A stretch of 64,000 nucleotides of DNA from positions 1 to 64,000 of the forward strand of contig CAIYTH010000036.1 of assembly GCA_903929135.1 (NCBI GenBank), read 5' to 3'. Position 1 is the stretch's first letter. Each line of letters starts with the position of its first letter. Shown here piece after piece: positions 9,042-50,440 of the stretch. The position numbers were made by a program, and so were the translations under genes. The DNA comes from an uncultured Chlorobiales bacterium (GTDB lineage Bacteria > Bacteroidota > Chlorobiia > Chlorobiales > Chlorobiaceae). A model generated the notes under the pieces. That model was not told the origin of the DNA, did no database searches, and saw only the letters and a list, made by a program, of their open reading frames with translations.

Positions 9042-10007
9042 ATGCGTATTCTTGCATTGCACGGTTCGAAGATATGCGGCTATCGAAGCGGCAAGCAGGA
9101 GGATTTCCCGCCACTCCCTTCGGCGGTTACCGTGGGTTCCTACGACGGGCTGCATGTTGGCCACCGGAAAATCATCGACGCCATGATCGTCAGGGCCGGG
9201 GAAAAGAGCCTGAGGAGCGTGGTCGTCACGTTCGAACCCCATCCCCGCCTTGTGCTCGACAGGACATCGTCATGTCCTGTCAGCCTGTTGACCACCCTCG
9301 AGGAGAAGATCAGCCACCTGGAGTCCATGGGCGTCGACCTGCTGCTCGTCGTCCGTTTCGACCGCGAGTTTGCCGACAGGAGTTCCGAATCGTTTATCCG
9401 CGAGGTGCTGGTCGGCCTTCTCTGCTCAGCTCATGTCGTCGTCGGCTACGACCACGGTTTCGGCCACGACCGGAGCGGCAGCGGCGTTACCCTGCAGGCG
9501 CTCGGCGCCGAATGCGGTTTTGACGTCGATGTGGTCGAGGAGGTGCTCGTCGGCGATGAGCCCGTTTCGAGCACCCGCATAAGGAAGCTGCTTCTGGAAG
9601 GAGGTGTACGTGAGGCCAATGCCTGCCTCGGAGCCCCCTACCTGGTCAGCGGAACGGTCGTCGACGGCCAGAAGCGTGGACGCCGGATCGGGTTTCCCAC
9701 GGTAAACCTCCGCCCTGCAGAGCCCTGCAAGCTCATACCCGCTCACGGCGTTTACGTTGCCAGGACCTCCATCGACGGCAAAGCCTGGCCGGCAATGATG
9801 AACATCGGTGTACGGCCTACCGTCTCGGATGACGAAACCGTGACGGTCGAAGCCCACATCCTGGGTTTCACGGGAGATCTTTACGGACGCGAGATGATGT
9901 TCAGCATGCTGGAGTATGTCAGGGAAGAGCGGCGGTTCGGTTCCATCGGAGAACTGCAGGAGCAGCTTGAACGGGATAAAAAAATGGTGGAGTTGTATCG
10001 GGAATAA
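9042..10007 (+). CDS. ribF: Bifunctional riboflavin kinase/FAD synthetase
   Basis: Makes FMN and FAD from riboflavin in two ATP-dependent steps. The N-terminal FAD synthetase (nucleotidyltransferase) domain has the VGSYDGLHVGHRKII motif and, further on, VGYDHGFGHDRSGS and SSTRIRKLL. The C-terminal riboflavin kinase domain has the GxxxGRRIGFPTVNL signature and the GVYVARTSIDG strand. I prefer ATG 9042 (321 residues), with GAGG 5 nt upstream, to an ATG at 9006 that would overlap truB. There is no FMN riboswitch-like leader; expression presumably follows the truB operon. Confidence 0.95.
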   Translation: MRILALHGSKICGYRSGKQEDFPPLPSAVTVGSYDGLHVGHRKIIDAMIVRAGEKSLRSVVVTFEPHPRLVLDRTSSCPVSLLTTLEEKISHLESMGVDLLLVVRFDREFADRSSESFIREVLVGLLCSAHVVVGYDHGFGHDRSGSGVTLQALGAECGFDVDVVEEVLVGDEPVSSTRIRKLLLEGGVREANACLGAPYLVSGTVVDGQKRGRRIGFPTVNLRPAEPCKLIPAHGVYVARTSIDGKAWPAMMNIGVRPTVSDDETVTVEAHILGFTGDLYGREMMFSMLEYVREERRFGSIGELQEQLERDKKMVELYRE

Positions 10008-12273: not shown

Positions 12274-12748
12274 CCAGATCACGCTTCGAGTCAACGATGT
12301 TCGTCTGGCCGAAGATTTCTATGCAGGCATCCTGGGCTTTCGGGTCGATCACCGGGCCGGAGCGAACATTTCCTACCTGCGCATCAATTCCGATCTTCTC
12401 GTACTCGTCAAAGCTGAAACCCCAGGTTCGGCCGACGCGAGGGACATCAGGGTCGACCATTTCGGATTCAGGCTCTCATCTGACGAAGAAGTCGACAGAT
12501 CGGCCATATACCTCAGCGACCGGGGGGTTCATCTCCTGACTCAGCCGGCGCATCGCCGCGAAGGTCGCGCCTTTTTCGTGATGGATCCCGACGGCAACCT
12601 CATCGAGTTCTATTCGATGCATTCCGAAGGCCTGCAGGAAGGTCCGGGACACCTCGACACCCGCTCTGCAAGCGAAATCGCTACCGACTCACGCAAGGAA
12701 GCATCAGCCGAAGGCGATGCCAAAAAAACAAGGCGCTCCCGCAAATAG
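12251..12748 (+). CDS. VOC (glyoxalase/bleomycin-resistance fold) protein
   Basis: A vicinal-oxygen-chelate fold protein. [25 protein letters not shown] is the first beta-alpha-beta module; DHFGFRL and [15 protein letters not shown] supply the usual metal-ligand positions (His and Glu). Such proteins act as lyases, dioxygenases or resistance proteins; the substrate here cannot be inferred. I start at ATG 12251, which overlaps the rpoZ end and has GAAGAAG before it, because the upstream in-frame extension does not resemble the family. The C-terminus is a charged tail rich in Lys/Arg/Glu. Confidence 0.7.
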
Positions 12749-12779
12749 CGCTGTTTCCAACGTTCGAAGGAATCCGTCC

Positions 12780-13952
12780 ATGAATATCGGCGTGCTGACA
12801 GGCGGAGGCGATGCGCCCGGCATCAATGCATGCATCAAGACCATCGTCACGATCGGTGCCGAAGAGGGTTACCGCGTCACGGGCATACGCCGTGGCTGGA
12901 ACGGCCTGCTTGCATTCAACCCTGCAGATCCGGAAAGCCGCGAAGAGCATGTGCTCGATCTCGACAGGGAGCTTGTCCGCAAGATCGACCGGACAGGCGG
13001 TACGCTTCTGCATACCAGCCGCATTCATCCCGGCAACCTCCTGAAAAACGAGATTCCGCCGTTCCTTCGTGACTCTTCGACCATCAAGCGGGCCGGCCTG
13101 CATCATTCCGCTAATTTTGACCTTACCGACCAGATACTCAGGAGCATCGAGGAGCTTGAGATCGATGTGATCATCGTCATCGGGGGCGACGACACCATTG
13201 CCTATGCCCAGCATCTTGCCGGGCGTGGCGTGAGGGTGATTGCCGTACCGAAGACGATGGACAACGACGTGTACGGGTCCGACTACTGCATCGGTTTCGG
13301 TACGGCGGTCACCAGGAGCGTTCAGTACATCCATCAGCTACGCACCAGCTCCGGCTCCCATGAACGGATCACCATCGTCGAGCTGTTCGGCCGCAGCACC
13401 GGCGAAACCTGCCTGATCAGCTCCTACCTTGCCGGTGTGGACCGTGCGCTCATTCCCGAGGTGCCGTTCGATCCTGAAACGCTTGCCGAATACGTCCTCG
13501 GGGACAAGGCCGGCAATGCGAGCCGTTATGTGATGGTGGCCATCAGCGAGGGGGCAAGAATGGTCGGGAGCAAGATGATCGAATACTGCGGGCACCGGTA
13601 TGACGAGAACGGTACGCAGCCTGCAGGTATCGGGCAGATCACCAGGGAGACCATCGCCATGCTGACCGGCCAGGATGTGATCTGCCAGCCTCTCGGCTAC
13701 CTGATGCGATCCGGTATTCCGGATGCACTCGACCTGATGGTGGGCTTCAATTTCGCCCAGCTCGCGGTCGAACTGATCAAAAAAAGGGTTGATGGCGTCA
13801 TGGTCGCCCTGCAGCACGGCATCTACACCTACCTGCCGCTCGAAGAGGTTTCCGGCAACAGCAAGCAGGTCGATCTCAGGGAGCTTTACGACACCGCGCA
13901 TTATCGCCCGAAGATGAGGAGTGTGCTGGGCAAGCCGATGTTCCTGTACTAG
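12780..13952 (+). CDS. pfk: 6-phosphofructokinase, PPi-dependent signature
   Basis: Phosphorylates fructose 6-phosphate in glycolysis. The N-terminal [17 protein letters not shown] is the phosphate-donor site. The two donor-specificity positions read GGDDT (135-139) and PKTMDND (157-163); ATP enzymes normally have GGDGS and PGTIDND, so the sequence argues for a pyrophosphate-dependent and probably reversible enzyme. 390 residues, longer than classic ATP-PFK. ATG 12780 has GAAGGA 8 nt upstream. The TAG stop at 13950-13952 is followed with no gap by a 141-bp palindromic repeat. Confidence 0.88.
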
Positions 13953-14093
13953 CGGCAGCGCCTCGATCTGCTGCGCAACCGGAGAGCTTCGTTGTGAGGT
14001 GCTCGAAATCCTCATGTACTGGGTGTACACTCCGGTTTCTGCGCTCCATCCGCCTTGTTCTCCGGCTGCCCGCGACGATCGGAGACGTTGCCG
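13953..14093 (+). repeat. 140-bp imperfect palindrome, copy A (after pfk)
   Basis: Begins at the base after the pfk stop codon. Outer arms CGGCAGCG...CGTTGCCG pair with one mismatch and continue inward with a bulge (CTCGATC opposite GATCGGAG). A second stem pairs CCGGA (13979-13983) with TCCGG (14061-14065). The central core GTGCTCGAAATCCTCATGTACT...GTGTACA is nearly identical to copies at 21592-21731 and 50300-50440. TTTTCC follows the closing arm. Confidence 0.8.
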
Positions 14094-14192
14094 TTTTCCG
14101 TTCCTCTCCCCAGGTTGAAACCCGGAGCAATCGAAGAAAAATGGGCTGTGTCAGGAGCATGTTTTTCAACATGTATTCGACCGCTCTTTTCT

Positions 14193-20323: not shown

Positions 20324-21592
20324 ATGTTCAGAACCCTCTTCGACATAGCCCTGCGGCACATTCTCGGACGCAAGCGCCAGACGCTGACGACCATGACGGG
20401 GGTTGCGGTCAGTACGATGGTGCTCATCACCACCATTTCGCTGACCAGGGGGTTGCTTGATTCGTTCACCGAAACCATCATCGACGTCGCCCCCCATATC
20501 ACCGTGAAAGGGGAGAAGCTTGATCTGGTTCCTGTCGACCTCATGGAGGGCAATACCCTGCAACGCCGTGCTTTCGTCGAAGACCACATCGGACGTGACG
20601 ACCGGGAAGAGGTTCGCAATTACGGGGAGATCCTCGACATTCTTGCCTCCCCGGCATTCCGTGGCGAGGTGCTTGCGGCATCCCCTTACGTGGCTTCGCA
20701 GGTCATGGCGGTCAAAGGGATCCGAAACCAGCCGGTGCTGGTCAAGGGCGTGATTCTCGACAGGGAGGAGAAGATCAGCCGTATCGGAAGGAGTCTGACC
20801 TCGGGGGATCTCAACCTGTTCAGGAAGAGTCCGGATGCGATTCTCGTGGGGCGCACCGTGGCGCGTGATCTGGATCTCAGGCTCAACGACGCGTTGACGG
20901 TCGTTTCGGTTGACGGCAAGAGCCGGCAGTGCAAGGTCGCCGGAGTGTTTTTCACGGGGGTCAACGCGGCCGACAACAGCGTCCTTTCGTCGCTCAAGTT
21001 CGCACAGATCCTTGAAGGGTTTCCGGCCAACAAGGTTACGGGCATCGCCCTCAAGATCCGGGATCCCCTCAGGGACGAAGGCCTGGCCAGCGACCTTCAG
21101 CGGATTACCGGCTATACCTGCCTGACCTGGCAGAAGGAGAACTCGAGCATCCTCATGCTGTTCGCCAGGATCGGTTACATCGTGTTATCCCTTGTGGCCT
21201 TCGTCGGCATCGTTTCAGGGTTCGGTGTGGCGAACATCCTGGTGACCACCGTCTTCGAGAAGAGCCGTGACATCGCCATCATGAAGTCTTTCGGATTCTC
21301 TTCGGGTCAGATGGTGGGGCTGTTCGTTTTCGAGGGGTTCCTTGTGGGCCTTGCCGGCGCCCTGTTCGGCGGCCTGCTTTCTGTCGGCTCCATCAGTCTC
21401 CTTGCCAGCCTGCCGATCGAAAGCTCACAGGGGCCGCTGACCAAAACCGGTTTCAGCATGTCGTGGAACCCGTGGTACTTCTTCTTCGTGATCGCCGTAA
21501 CCGTTCTTATCAGCACCATCGCCGCCGCGCTTCCGTCGGCAAGGGCTGCGAAGCTGGAGCCGGTCAAGGTGCTGCGCGACGCCAACCTTTGA
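20324..21592 (+). CDS. ABC transporter permease, LolC/MacB (FtsX) type
   Basis: A 422-residue integral membrane protein of the MacB/LolC/FtsX superfamily: an N-terminal helix after RHILGRKRQTLTTMTGVAVSTMVLI, a large extracytoplasmic domain (about residues 45-270) and three C-terminal helices in the FtsX domain (IVLSLVAFVGIVSGFGVANILVTTVFEKSRDIAIMKSFGF region, then two more). LolC/E members release lipoproteins from the inner membrane; others export peptides. No ATPase partner gene adjoins it, so it presumably uses one encoded elsewhere. Divergent from idi. Its TGA stop overlaps by one base a 140-bp palindrome. Confidence 0.85.
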   Translation: MFRTLFDIALRHILGRKRQTLTTMTGVAVSTMVLITTISLTRGLLDSFTETIIDVAPHITVKGEKLDLVPVDLMEGNTLQRRAFVEDHIGRDDREEVRNYGEILDILASPAFRGEVLAASPYVASQVMAVKGIRNQPVLVKGVILDREEKISRIGRSLTSGDLNLFRKSPDAILVGRTVARDLDLRLNDALTVVSVDGKSRQCKVAGVFFTGVNAADNSVLSSLKFAQILEGFPANKVTGIALKIRDPLRDEGLASDLQRITGYTCLTWQKENSSILMLFARIGYIVLSLVAFVGIVSGFGVANILVTTVFEKSRDIAIMKSFGFSSGQMVGLFVFEGFLVGLAGALFGGLLSVGSISLLASLPIESSQGPLTKTGFSMSWNPWYFFFVIAVTVLISTIAAALPSARAAKLEPVKVLRDANL

Positions 21593-21731
21593 GTATCGTT
21601 ATCAACCTGTTGCGCGATTCGATTGCTGCGTTGGTCGGTGCTCGAAATCCTCATGTACTTCGTGTACATTCCGGTTTCTGCGCTCCGTCCGCCTTCCACT
21701 CGAACCGCTCACGACGGTTGATAACGATACT
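21592..21731 (+). repeat. 140-bp imperfect palindrome, copy B (after LolC-like gene)
   Basis: Perfect 16-bp inverted ends AGTATCGTTATCAACC (21592-21607) and GGTTGATAACGATACT (21716-21731). Inside, TTCGA (21618-21622) pairs with TCGAA (21700-21704), and the core folds as ATGTAC / GTACAT around TTCGT. The first base is the last base of the gene's TGA stop. No protein-coding content; small open frames in it are by-products of the repeat. Confidence 0.85.
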
Positions 21732-21764: not shown

Positions 21765-21840
21765 GCAGGGGTTCAACCCTGCGGAAATTCAACCTCTTAC
21801 ATTTTCTTGAGTTGCCCCGGGCTTCAGCCCGGGGGGAGAG
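21765..21840 (-). repeat. Two-hairpin repeat, copy 2
   Basis: Hairpin GCAGGGGTTCAACCCTGC at 21765-21782, spacer with TTACATTTTCTTGAGTTG, then CCCCGGGCTTCAGCCCGGGG at 21815-21834. It lies 8 nt after the stop of the minus-strand ABC exporter. The spacer and second hairpin match 18080-18136; the first hairpin has the same 18-nt size but a different stem sequence. Confidence 0.78.
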
Positions 21841-21842
21841 GA

Positions 21843-23672
21843 TCAGTTCTCTTCCATGCGGCTGCGTTCCGGGTGCTGGAGCAGATAGAGTTTGTGGTAG
21901 AGGCCCTTGCGGGCGAGCAGCTCCTGGTGCGTGCCGGTTTCGCGGATGGTGCCTTTGTGCAGGACGATGATGTTGTCGGCGTGCTGGATGGTCGACAGGC
22001 GGTGGGCGATGATGATCGATGTCCGGTGTTTCATGAGCCGGTCGGTCGCCTGCTCGATAAGCGATTCGGTCTCCGTATCGACCGAACTGGTCGCCTCGTC
22101 GAGCACGAGGATGTCAGGATTGTACAGGAGGGCCCTGACGAATGCGATGAGCTGTTTCTGGCCGACCGAAAGTCCCGAGCCGTTTTCGCGTATCCGGTAG
22201 TCGTATCCGCCGGGCAGCTGTTCGATGAACCGATCGGCGCCGACGATGCGTGCCGCCTCCCGTATCTTTTCGTCAGGGACCGACGGGTCCCCGAAACAGA
22301 GGTTCTCGCGCACCGTACCCGAGAAGAGGACGACGTCCTGCATGACCACGCCGATGAGCCTGCGGAGGGCGTGTCCGGGGATATTGTCGAGTGAGGTGCC
22401 GTCGATGGTGACCGAACCCTTCCGGACGGGATAGAACCTCGAAAGGATGTTGATGAGTGTCGTTTTGCCGCTGCCGGTTGCGCCCACGATGGCCACGGTC
22501 TGTCCAGCCCTGATCTCCATATTGATGTCGCGGAGCACCCAGTTCTCCTCGTCATAGGCGAAAGAAACGTCACTGAAGACGATCCGGTCGGCGAACCTCT
22601 CCGGGACCTTTCCGGCCTCCTCGAGCGGTTCCGGTGTCACCGGCTCTTCGAGCAGCCGGAAGATGCGGTCAGAACTGGTAACGGCGTTCTGCATGATGTT
22701 GAACCGGTCGGACAGGTGCTGGAGCGGACGGAAGAACAGCCAGATGTACTGTACGAACGAGACGACCACTCCGACCGTGAGGTCCGACCTGAAGATCCTG
22801 GTCGCGCTGTACCATATCACGAAACCGGCCGTCAGCGAACTCAGGAACTCGATCAGCGGGTAGTAGATTGAAAAATAGAAGACGGTCCTGACGTTGGCGT
22901 CCCGGTGGTCGGCGTTGATCTCGGCATGTCGCTGAAATTCGGTCTGCTCCCTTCCGAAGAGCTGGACGATCTTCATGCCGGTGATATGCTCCTGGAAAAA
23001 TGAGTTGAGGCGCGCCAGGTGCGTCCTGACGTCGAGATAAGCCTGGCGGACGCGGTTCTTGAAGGCGACGGTCGAGTAGATCATGATCGGCAGCACGCTC
23101 AGCACCAGGAGCGTCAACCGCCAGTCGATCCAGATCATCATGACCACGATGAACACGAGCTGCAGTATGTCCCCGATGACCGTGATCAGTCCGCTGGAGA
23201 GCATTTCGTCGAGCGCTTCCACGTCGTTGGTGGTCCTGGTGATGATTCTTCCGACCGGATTTCGGTCGAAATAACGGATAGGCAGGCGCTGCAGGTGCTT
23301 GAAGATGTCCATGCGGAGGTTGAAGACCGCTTTCTGCCCGATGAGCTCGGTGAGCCAGGTGACCTGGTATTGCTTGAGGCCGTCGAGGATGACCACGGCA
23401 AGCATGATAAGGCTGACGACGGCGAGTCCCTGGTGGTCTCCGCGTCTGATGAAGTCGTCAATGGCGATCTTGGTAAGCCATGGCCTGAGCGGCCCGAGCA
23501 GAGCTCCGGCGGCTGTCAGCAGGACCGCACCGGTGACGAGCCCCTTGAAAGGCTTGACGTATCCGAACAGCCGCTTGACGATATACAGGTCGACCGAGCC
23601 TTTCTGTTTTCCGCCGAGTGTTTCGTCACGTTGCGTACGGAAGCCGGTCGCCGGTTTCGCTGCTCCACTCAC
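21843..23672 (-). CDS. ABC exporter, fused permease-ATPase (MsbA/MdlB type)
   Basis: A 609-residue half-transporter that works as a dimer in the inner membrane. Six transmembrane helices in the first ~320 residues (VTGAVLLTAAGALLG, LAVVSLIMLAVVILDG, VIGDILQLVFIVVMM and others). The ATPase domain has Walker A GATGSGKTT, signature LSVGQKQL and Walker B ILVLDEATSSVD. Substrate unknown; lipid A or lipid-linked molecules are typical of this group. The start is chosen as GTG 23672: AGGGG lies 8 nt upstream and it avoids a long overlap with the phosphohexomutase gene, whose stop it overlaps slightly on the upstream side. Confidence 0.88.
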   Translation of the reverse strand: MSGAAKPATGFRTQRDETLGGKQKGSVDLYIVKRLFGYVKPFKGLVTGAVLLTAAGALLGPLRPWLTKIAIDDFIRRGDHQGLAVVSLIMLAVVILDGLKQYQVTWLTELIGQKAVFNLRMDIFKHLQRLPIRYFDRNPVGRIITRTTNDVEALDEMLSSGLITVIGDILQLVFIVVMMIWIDWRLTLLVLSVLPIMIYSTVAFKNRVRQAYLDVRTHLARLNSFFQEHITGMKIVQLFGREQTEFQRHAEINADHRDANVRTVFYFSIYYPLIEFLSSLTAGFVIWYSATRIFRSDLTVGVVVSFVQYIWLFFRPLQHLSDRFNIMQNAVTSSDRIFRLLEEPVTPEPLEEAGKVPERFADRIVFSDVSFAYDEENWVLRDINMEIRAGQTVAIVGATGSGKTTLINILSRFYPVRKGSVTIDGTSLDNIPGHALRRLIGVVMQDVVLFSGTVRENLCFGDPSVPDEKIREAARIVGADRFIEQLPGGYDYRIRENGSGLSVGQKQLIAFVRALLYNPDILVLDEATSSVDTETESLIEQATDRLMKHRTSIIIAHRLSTIQHADNIIVLHKGTIRETGTHQELLARKGLYHKLYLLQHPERSRMEEN

Positions 23673-50299: not shown

Positions 50300-50440
50300 G
50301 AAACGCCGTGCAACCGTCGTGAGCGGTTCGAGTGCAAGGCGGCCGGAGCGGAGAATCCGGAGTGTACAGACGGTGCATGAGGATTTCGAGCACTTGACCA
50401 ACGCAGCAATCGAATTGCGCAACAGGTTAAACCGCGTTTC
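50300..50440 (-). repeat. 140-bp imperfect palindrome, copy C (after ychF)
   Basis: Ends GAAACGCCGTGCAACC (50300-50315) and GGTTAAACCGCGTTTC (50425-50440) are complementary at 13 of 16 positions. The minus-strand core (GTGCTCGAAATCCTCATG) matches copies A and B, and the inner TTCGA/TCGAA stem matches copy B. It begins 1 nt after the minus-strand ychF stop codon, on the same strand as ychF. Confidence 0.82.

Follow-up and report, generated by a model that had tools for sequence, protein, structure and literature searches.

A hairpin MITE of the Chlorobiaceae with co-drifting arms, its sense copies retained at stop codons and probably active at mRNA 3' ends

The window, meaning the whole stretch of 64,000 nucleotides analysed here, carries three copies of a hairpin element that we take, with rather more confidence than doubt, to be a MITE whose sense copies at stop codons are retained while their arms drift together, likely serving as the 3'-end hairpin of the upstream mRNA. 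The pairing of sequence-divergent arms noticed by the initial annotation was confirmed and holds well outside the window too. Sequence alone would offer a view of how a bacterial MITE becomes domesticated, with intact-duplication insertions showing no clear orientation bias at stop codons and old insertions being biased.

Copies of the element in the window

The three copies, A to C, were found where the initial annotation had placed them, each starting at a stop codon on its own strand. Their positions, and the parts of copy B, are as follows.

13953 to 14093, plus strand: copy A of the hairpin element, directly behind the TAG stop codon of a phosphofructokinase-like gene (12717-13952)
21592 to 21731, plus strand: copy B of the hairpin element, starting on the last base of the TGA stop codon of a LolC/E-type permease gene (20324-21592)
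50300 to 50440, minus strand: copy C of the hairpin element, one base past the TAA stop codon of ychF (51533-50442)
21592 to 21607, plus strand: left arm of copy B, AGTATCGTTATCAACC, complementary to the right arm at 16 of 16 positions
21716 to 21731, plus strand: right arm of copy B, complementary to the left arm at 16 of 16 positions
21608 to 21715, plus strand: conserved core of copy B, from the consensus structure and the genome-wide matches, most of which span about 21604-21719 of the window (about 25-140 of the query)
21653 to 21669, plus strand: terminal hairpin of copy B, ATGTAC-loop-GTACAT (helix 4), with one covarying pair, T-A / C-G, at columns 68/83

The arm pairing was as had been claimed. 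In the ungapped 16-bp register the arms were complementary at 16/16 positions in copy B, 13/16 in copy C and 10/16 in copy A, whose arms pair well in the fold only with a bulge. Among the 63,859 window positions at a spacing of 140, complementarity of 16/16 was found at one and of 13/16 at two. The shared core was likewise borne out, a 20-base core sequence matching three times in the window at up to three mismatches against an expectation of 0.00, as was the compensatory change in the inner stem, in which TTCGA/TCGAA of copies B and C is replaced by CCGGA/TCCGG in copy A. Fold z-scores were -8.17 for copy B, -4.37 for copy A and -1.64 for copy C, the energy of the last being unremarkable taken singly, with 12 of 200 shuffles folding equally well.

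Several copies are adjoined by another palindromic repeat (CCCGGGTTGAAACCCGGG / GCCCCGGGCTTCAGCCCGGGG type), which is present in the window at about 21770-21845 and 14110-14130. It was also seen at loci L021, L025 and L136, and in one relative (G028; the window's own genome is G000) it occupies the expected left-arm place of the ortholog of copy A.

Distribution of the element

A search of the window's genome (2.14 Mb in 62 contigs) with copy B returned 20 places including copy B itself, all at E values of 4.1e-12 or better, and 19 full copies from this genome were taken into the tables. Matches were present in 41 of 61 Chlorobiaceae genomes. R1, a model built from 63 Chlorobiaceae copies, matched 38 genomes in a 247-genome draw from the phylum, 35 of them from the same family and three from one other family. 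The full copies gathered numbered 228 (167 from 30 genomes, then 61 more); counts of arms and orientation omit copies near a contig end or with core coverage falling short of model positions <=8 to >=108.

A pattern scan of named genomes returned at least 116 stretches. Among the 80 stretches listed, most were from Burkholderiales, Gallionella-type, Rhodocyclales and other beta- and gammaproteobacteria, joined by one Candidatus Troglogloeales and by Chlorobiaceae. R1 scores were 147.5 bits in Methylovulum, 115.9 bits in Comamonas and 53.3-72.1 bits at four distinct E. coli loci. Our best explanation is that hairpin MITEs of about 140 bp make up a family present in several bacterial groups, of which the element represents the Chlorobiaceae branch, a reading that, taken as a whole, we consider somewhat better than evenly probable. 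Among the papers listed from the open-access literature searched, none dealt with the repeat in green sulfur bacteria.

Some copies had unusual arrangements. Locus L096 of G044 (contig C5) holds three copies and one partial copy arrayed head to tail with a repeat unit of 147 bp (9104-9585). In G012 (C5:18705-18876) and G010 (C1:35687-35833) the two halves of the element give separate matches, which would fit a replaced terminal hairpin or an insertion in the loop. In Pseudomonas sp. HMWF032, two matches to the guanidine-I riboswitch (L325, 2439-2547 and 3858-3982) lie near an element copy.

Arm pairing and covariation

Within-copy arm pairing exceeded that of swapped arms in all five sets tested, with 0 of 2000 permutations reaching the observed value in each. 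For the 19 copies of the window's genome it was 10.37 of 14 positions against 5.69 when swapped, so that arms unpaired within their own copies, the outcome to which the initial annotation had tied the failure of its claim, were not what was found; some single copies are badly paired, such as G000:C14:28907 of the window's genome with 6/14. The corresponding values were 10.43/14 against 6.88 for all 167 copies and 9.36/14 against 5.27 for the 66 copies whose left arm is unlike the terminal repeat described below. In a set of 62 mostly proteobacterial copies, comprising 57 hand-picked from 85 R1 matches plus five more and leaving out partial, opposite-strand, shortened and lengthened ones, pairing was 14.35/18 against 7.45, again with 0 of 2000 permutations as high.

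The whole element forms one long stem, and two-sided pair changes were present in all four helices. The covariation asserted by the initial annotation proved strong, with a score of 0.348 in 63 copies (set A1) compared to 0.127 when shuffled and at most 0.094 with slid partners, controls that only partly remove shared ancestry and of which the slid versions are at a disadvantage because the tested structure derives from copies of the same set. This structure was obtained from averaged single-sequence pair probabilities, which replaced the poor structure given by RNAalifold on the full alignment, and was tested on A1. A further set, A2, has opposite-strand matches of some copies and therefore inflated counts, and the covariation result rests on A1.

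Terminal repeats and mobility

A consensus terminal inverted repeat (TIR), GGGCACCTCTAWW, forms the arms in G044, G034 and other genomes and is gone from most copies in the window's genome. The element ends in GGG..CCC, and its 4-bp flank duplications are mixed in sequence. Among the 101 copies with a TIR-like left arm, the duplication was perfect (4/4) in 35 and 3/4 in 20; among the 66 divergent-arm copies it was perfect in two, both in one tandem array. Seven sites were inspected for emptiness, of which one was clean, four retained remnants and two were unclear. At the clean site, G056 has a single ATCT and G044 has the element between two ATCT. Because a consensus terminal repeat, common 4-bp duplications and a clean empty site were all found, that is, the shared terminal inverted repeats, target site duplication and empty site by which a MITE is recognized, it is concluded that the element moves or has moved as a MITE. 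No autonomous insertion sequence with the same ends was detected among the 30 loci examined (of 155 repeat matches in three genomes), all 30 of which carry at least part of the core.

The same consensus repeats, duplications and clean empty site in relatives allow the divergent arms of the window to be read as old, decayed terminal repeats. The arms of locus B in G044, CGGTATTTTTGTT, are near the consensus, with differences that are mainly transitions and an opposite side that is paired. That the element had instead inserted into pre-existing terminator palindromes, its arms being target sequence, would account for unrelated yet paired arms at gene ends, but we find this barely credible: the arms in relatives are the consensus repeat with target duplications outside it, no such palindrome exists at the clean empty site, and the divergent arm of locus B is still consensus-like in G044. 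On these grounds existing terminators were rejected as the source of the arms.

Orientation and age at stop codons

The 228 copies were collapsed by orthology to 185 locations. A stop codon was scored at the arm edge where an open frame of at least 80 codons, used in place of curated genes, ended 25 to 8 bases ahead of the core, which corresponds to the outer edge of the arm. Copies that were TIR-like and had at least three of the four duplication bases were classed as young (n=82) and the others as old (n=103).

In the young copies, a stop codon lay at the arm edge in sense only in 11, in antisense only in nine and on both edges in two, whereas the old copies had 53 in sense only, six in antisense only and five with both (11/9 against 53/6, both-edge copies excluded; Fisher p 0.0016). 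A weaker contrast was obtained without collapsing orthologs and with a perfect duplication as the mark of youth (9 vs 5 against 68 vs 9; Fisher p 0.037). In three windows lying 43-140 bases out, old copies showed no sense excess (8 vs 15, 2 vs 10 and 3 vs 11). In the window's genome, 12 copies were sense and one antisense when 100-codon frames were used, and the 62 mostly proteobacterial copies had an edge stop in sense in 38 and in antisense in 13, counts that may overlap. The selective retention of sense copies at stop codons over long times is thus shown statistically. Since young copies are even in orientation and old ones are sense-biased, the pattern points to retention as a hairpin at the mRNA 3' end, where an effect on the mRNA would be expected.

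A stable stem directly behind stop codons is also what an ordinary intrinsic transcription terminator would provide. No clear T-tract was found, the T fraction in the 10 bases past the arm being 0.31 in divergent-arm copies and 0.35 in TIR-like copies against a background of 0.27, and a terminator needs no conserved core of such length. We consider this reading very improbable.

Evolution in place at orthologous loci

Loci B and C are common to two genera. At locus B, a copy or remnant was present at the same stop codon in at least eight of the 29 genomes shown, namely the window's (G000) and seven others: G044, G015 and G035, G020 (half of the element), G056 and G051 (both truncated) and G003 (a remnant, by judgement). 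G026 is possibly another holder, and the contig of G028 ends 52 bases on. The arms at this locus differ among G000, G044, G015 and G035, pairing at 16/16 in the window and more poorly elsewhere. The core of locus B is 93% identical between the genera and the neighbouring gene 71% identical. Copy C has an ortholog in G044 with both flanks matching. Copies A and B are missing from most of the relatives shown, giving a patchy presence. In G006, G022 and others the element is absent after the orthologs of the genes preceding A and B, and in some relatives the gene end is taken up by different short hairpins or by low-complexity repeats (GGGACAGCAAGGACAGC, GGTCTTATAAGACC).

Across 16 deep ortholog comparisons, which are non-independent, 61 arm pairs had changed on both sides and were still paired, 41 had changed on one side and 18 had changed on both sides and were unpaired. 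One pair at one locus is T-A, C-G and A-T in three genomes. In several ortholog pairs the core diverges more than the flank, so that some arm changes may represent replacements of the element; between G012 and G022 at one locus (78% vs 90%), element replacement is as likely as change in place.

Paired changes of this kind could be explained without function if the element were a neutral MITE and mutation rather than selection maintained the complementarity of its arms, template switching in the hairpin (quasipalindrome correction) copying changes from one arm to the other. Mismatches without strand polarity and the similar folding of both strands agree with such a process. Against this, eight TIR-like ortholog pairs, which are on the whole younger (flank identity 84-97% vs 71-91% in the deep pairs), had 17 one-sided arm changes, one two-sided paired change and no two-sided unpaired change. 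The same uncorrected C-A mismatch also persists in G018 and G022, whose flanks are 83-88% identical, and template switching gives no reason to expect a sense bias at stop codons that depends on age. We therefore regard the neutral explanation as rather unlikely.

Strand symmetry and the proposed role of retained copies

Plain selection on a sense RNA stem would predict an excess of G-U over A-C mismatches. No such excess was observed in well-paired arms, with G-U against A-C counts of 12 vs 15 in 32 divergent-arm copies and 13 vs 37 in 79 TIR-like copies, nor in a separate mismatch count (14 vs 20 and 25 vs 47). A count by alignment columns on the poor structure leans the opposite way for divergent arms (G-U 32 vs A-C 20). 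The plus strand folds slightly worse than the minus strand. The lack of a G-U excess, a sense fold that is no better and the patchy presence all stand against a reading at the RNA level. The surplus of A-C over G-U mismatches on the plus strand of the 79 TIR-like well-paired copies may reflect a mutational strand bias.

The absence of an RNA-type mismatch bias and the similar folding of the strands are compatible with a function at the DNA level, in which a structure-specific protein, be it a transposase, nucleoid protein or nuclease, binds the element in its extruded hairpin or cruciform form and pairing matters in both strands; the conserved letters of the core fit this too. A cruciform offers no ready reason for the sense orientation at stop codons, however, and we judge such a function improbable.

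The reading we prefer remains that of a hairpin MITE acting in the upstream mRNA. The element spreads, or has spread, as a non-autonomous transposon with short terminal inverted repeat ends and a 4-bp target duplication, as the observations above show. Copies landing in sense exactly at a stop codon are kept for long, as the statistics of old copies show, and in these retained copies the terminal repeats drift while the arms tend to stay paired and so keep the stem closed, as seen with exceptions at orthologous sites. Most probably such copies serve as the hairpin at the 3' end of the upstream gene's mRNA, where they may set the trimming, processing or stabilization of the transcript. The core would be the orientation-specific signal, the arms supplying only the closing stem. 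Because orientation matters despite a nearly symmetric stem, the asymmetric core must, on this argument, be read on the transcribed strand, from which we infer that a retained copy acts in the upstream mRNA. The initial annotation had offered an RNA 3' element or mobile DNA as alternatives, and each holds in part: the terminal repeats, duplications and one empty site mark a MITE, and the old copies have the behaviour expected of a conserved 3' element.

Relationship to known systems

In the window, cmscan at the gathering threshold returned two tRNAs only. The view that no named family matches the element was nevertheless mistaken, as Rfam sX9 (RF02228) matches 18 of the 19 full copies in the window's genome, though below its cut-off. 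At E values up to 1 there were 19 sX9 matches in this genome, of which 18 were element copies; the best scored 37.5 bits (E 2.8e-5), the weakest match to an element copy had an E value of 0.26, and the full copy missed was C33:39203. Copy A was matched at 14014-14087 with 37.2 bits. In addition, sX9 matched 4/4 Chlorobiaceae test loci and, at E values up to 0.1, 5/9 other loci. Its gathering cut-off of 44 bits was reached nowhere, scores ranging from 19.8 to 40.9 bits with the best in Comamonas.

All 76 positions of the sX9 model align, but only to the element's right half, so that part of the hairpin lies outside the model. It is annotated as a Xanthomonas sRNA, a stand-alone sRNA gene, unlike the present element, a mobile repeat scattered over gene ends. 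PMC9029176 counts sX9 with the most prevalent sRNAs of bacterial genomes, and PMC10924375 describes Xanthomonas sX9 genes as up-regulated under copper. The match suggests that what is called sX9 may in many cases be no sRNA gene but a piece of a dispersed repeat.

The likeness to ERIC that had been proposed received weak support from sequence. R1 scored low on six ERIC loci (27.7, 23.7, 16.2, 13.6, 13.6 and 10.2 bits; E 3e-5 to 0.29 in 5.3 kb), its best match being the ERIC copy on the same strand in 6/6 loci, and plain alignment to ERIC barely exceeded 300 shuffles (23.5 vs 23.0). A relationship to ERIC is thus suggestive. ERIC/IRU (RU-1) of enterobacteria is likewise a long imperfect palindrome of similar length, intergenic and MITE-like. 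Its termini are given as TA in Table 1 of PMC2229807, and the present element instead has GGG ends with 4-bp duplications. According to the same review (PMC2229807), ERIC acts on mRNA, altering in Yersinia the stability of upstream transcripts, with orientation being crucial; this is the nearest tested precedent we found for an mRNA role.

REP/BIME elements, as outlined in the descriptions consulted, are RAYT-linked palindromes of 20-40 bp with a GTAG/CGTC tag, from which the present element differs in length and anatomy. NEMIS/Correia, RUP, YPAL, BOX and REPIN are also short, hairpin-forming and mobile in trans, a likeness by description only, and those descriptions mention no sequence-free, co-varying arms.

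In E. coli, 5374 of 5426 genomes had at least one match to the core, at a median of two places, about 53 core bases being 80-90% identical. R1 scored 53-72 bits across the whole hairpin of this repeat, the arms and outer core of which differ from those of the element. The unannotated copies (loci L244, L245/L246, L247 and L248) lie between glrK (qseE) and qseG, ucpA and cysP, pheM and pheS, and ycbX and rlmKL. RU-3, of the review cited above for ERIC, and RSA were considered as possible published names for the repeat. With about two copies in nearly every genome, E. coli offers a testable model. It is conceivable, at a little short of an even chance, that sX9, the E. coli repeat, ERIC and the Chlorobiaceae element belong to one ancient superfamily of mobile hairpins, with a conserved core and sequence-free arms co-evolving by pairing, that has repeatedly been made into mRNA 3'-end modules at stop codons.
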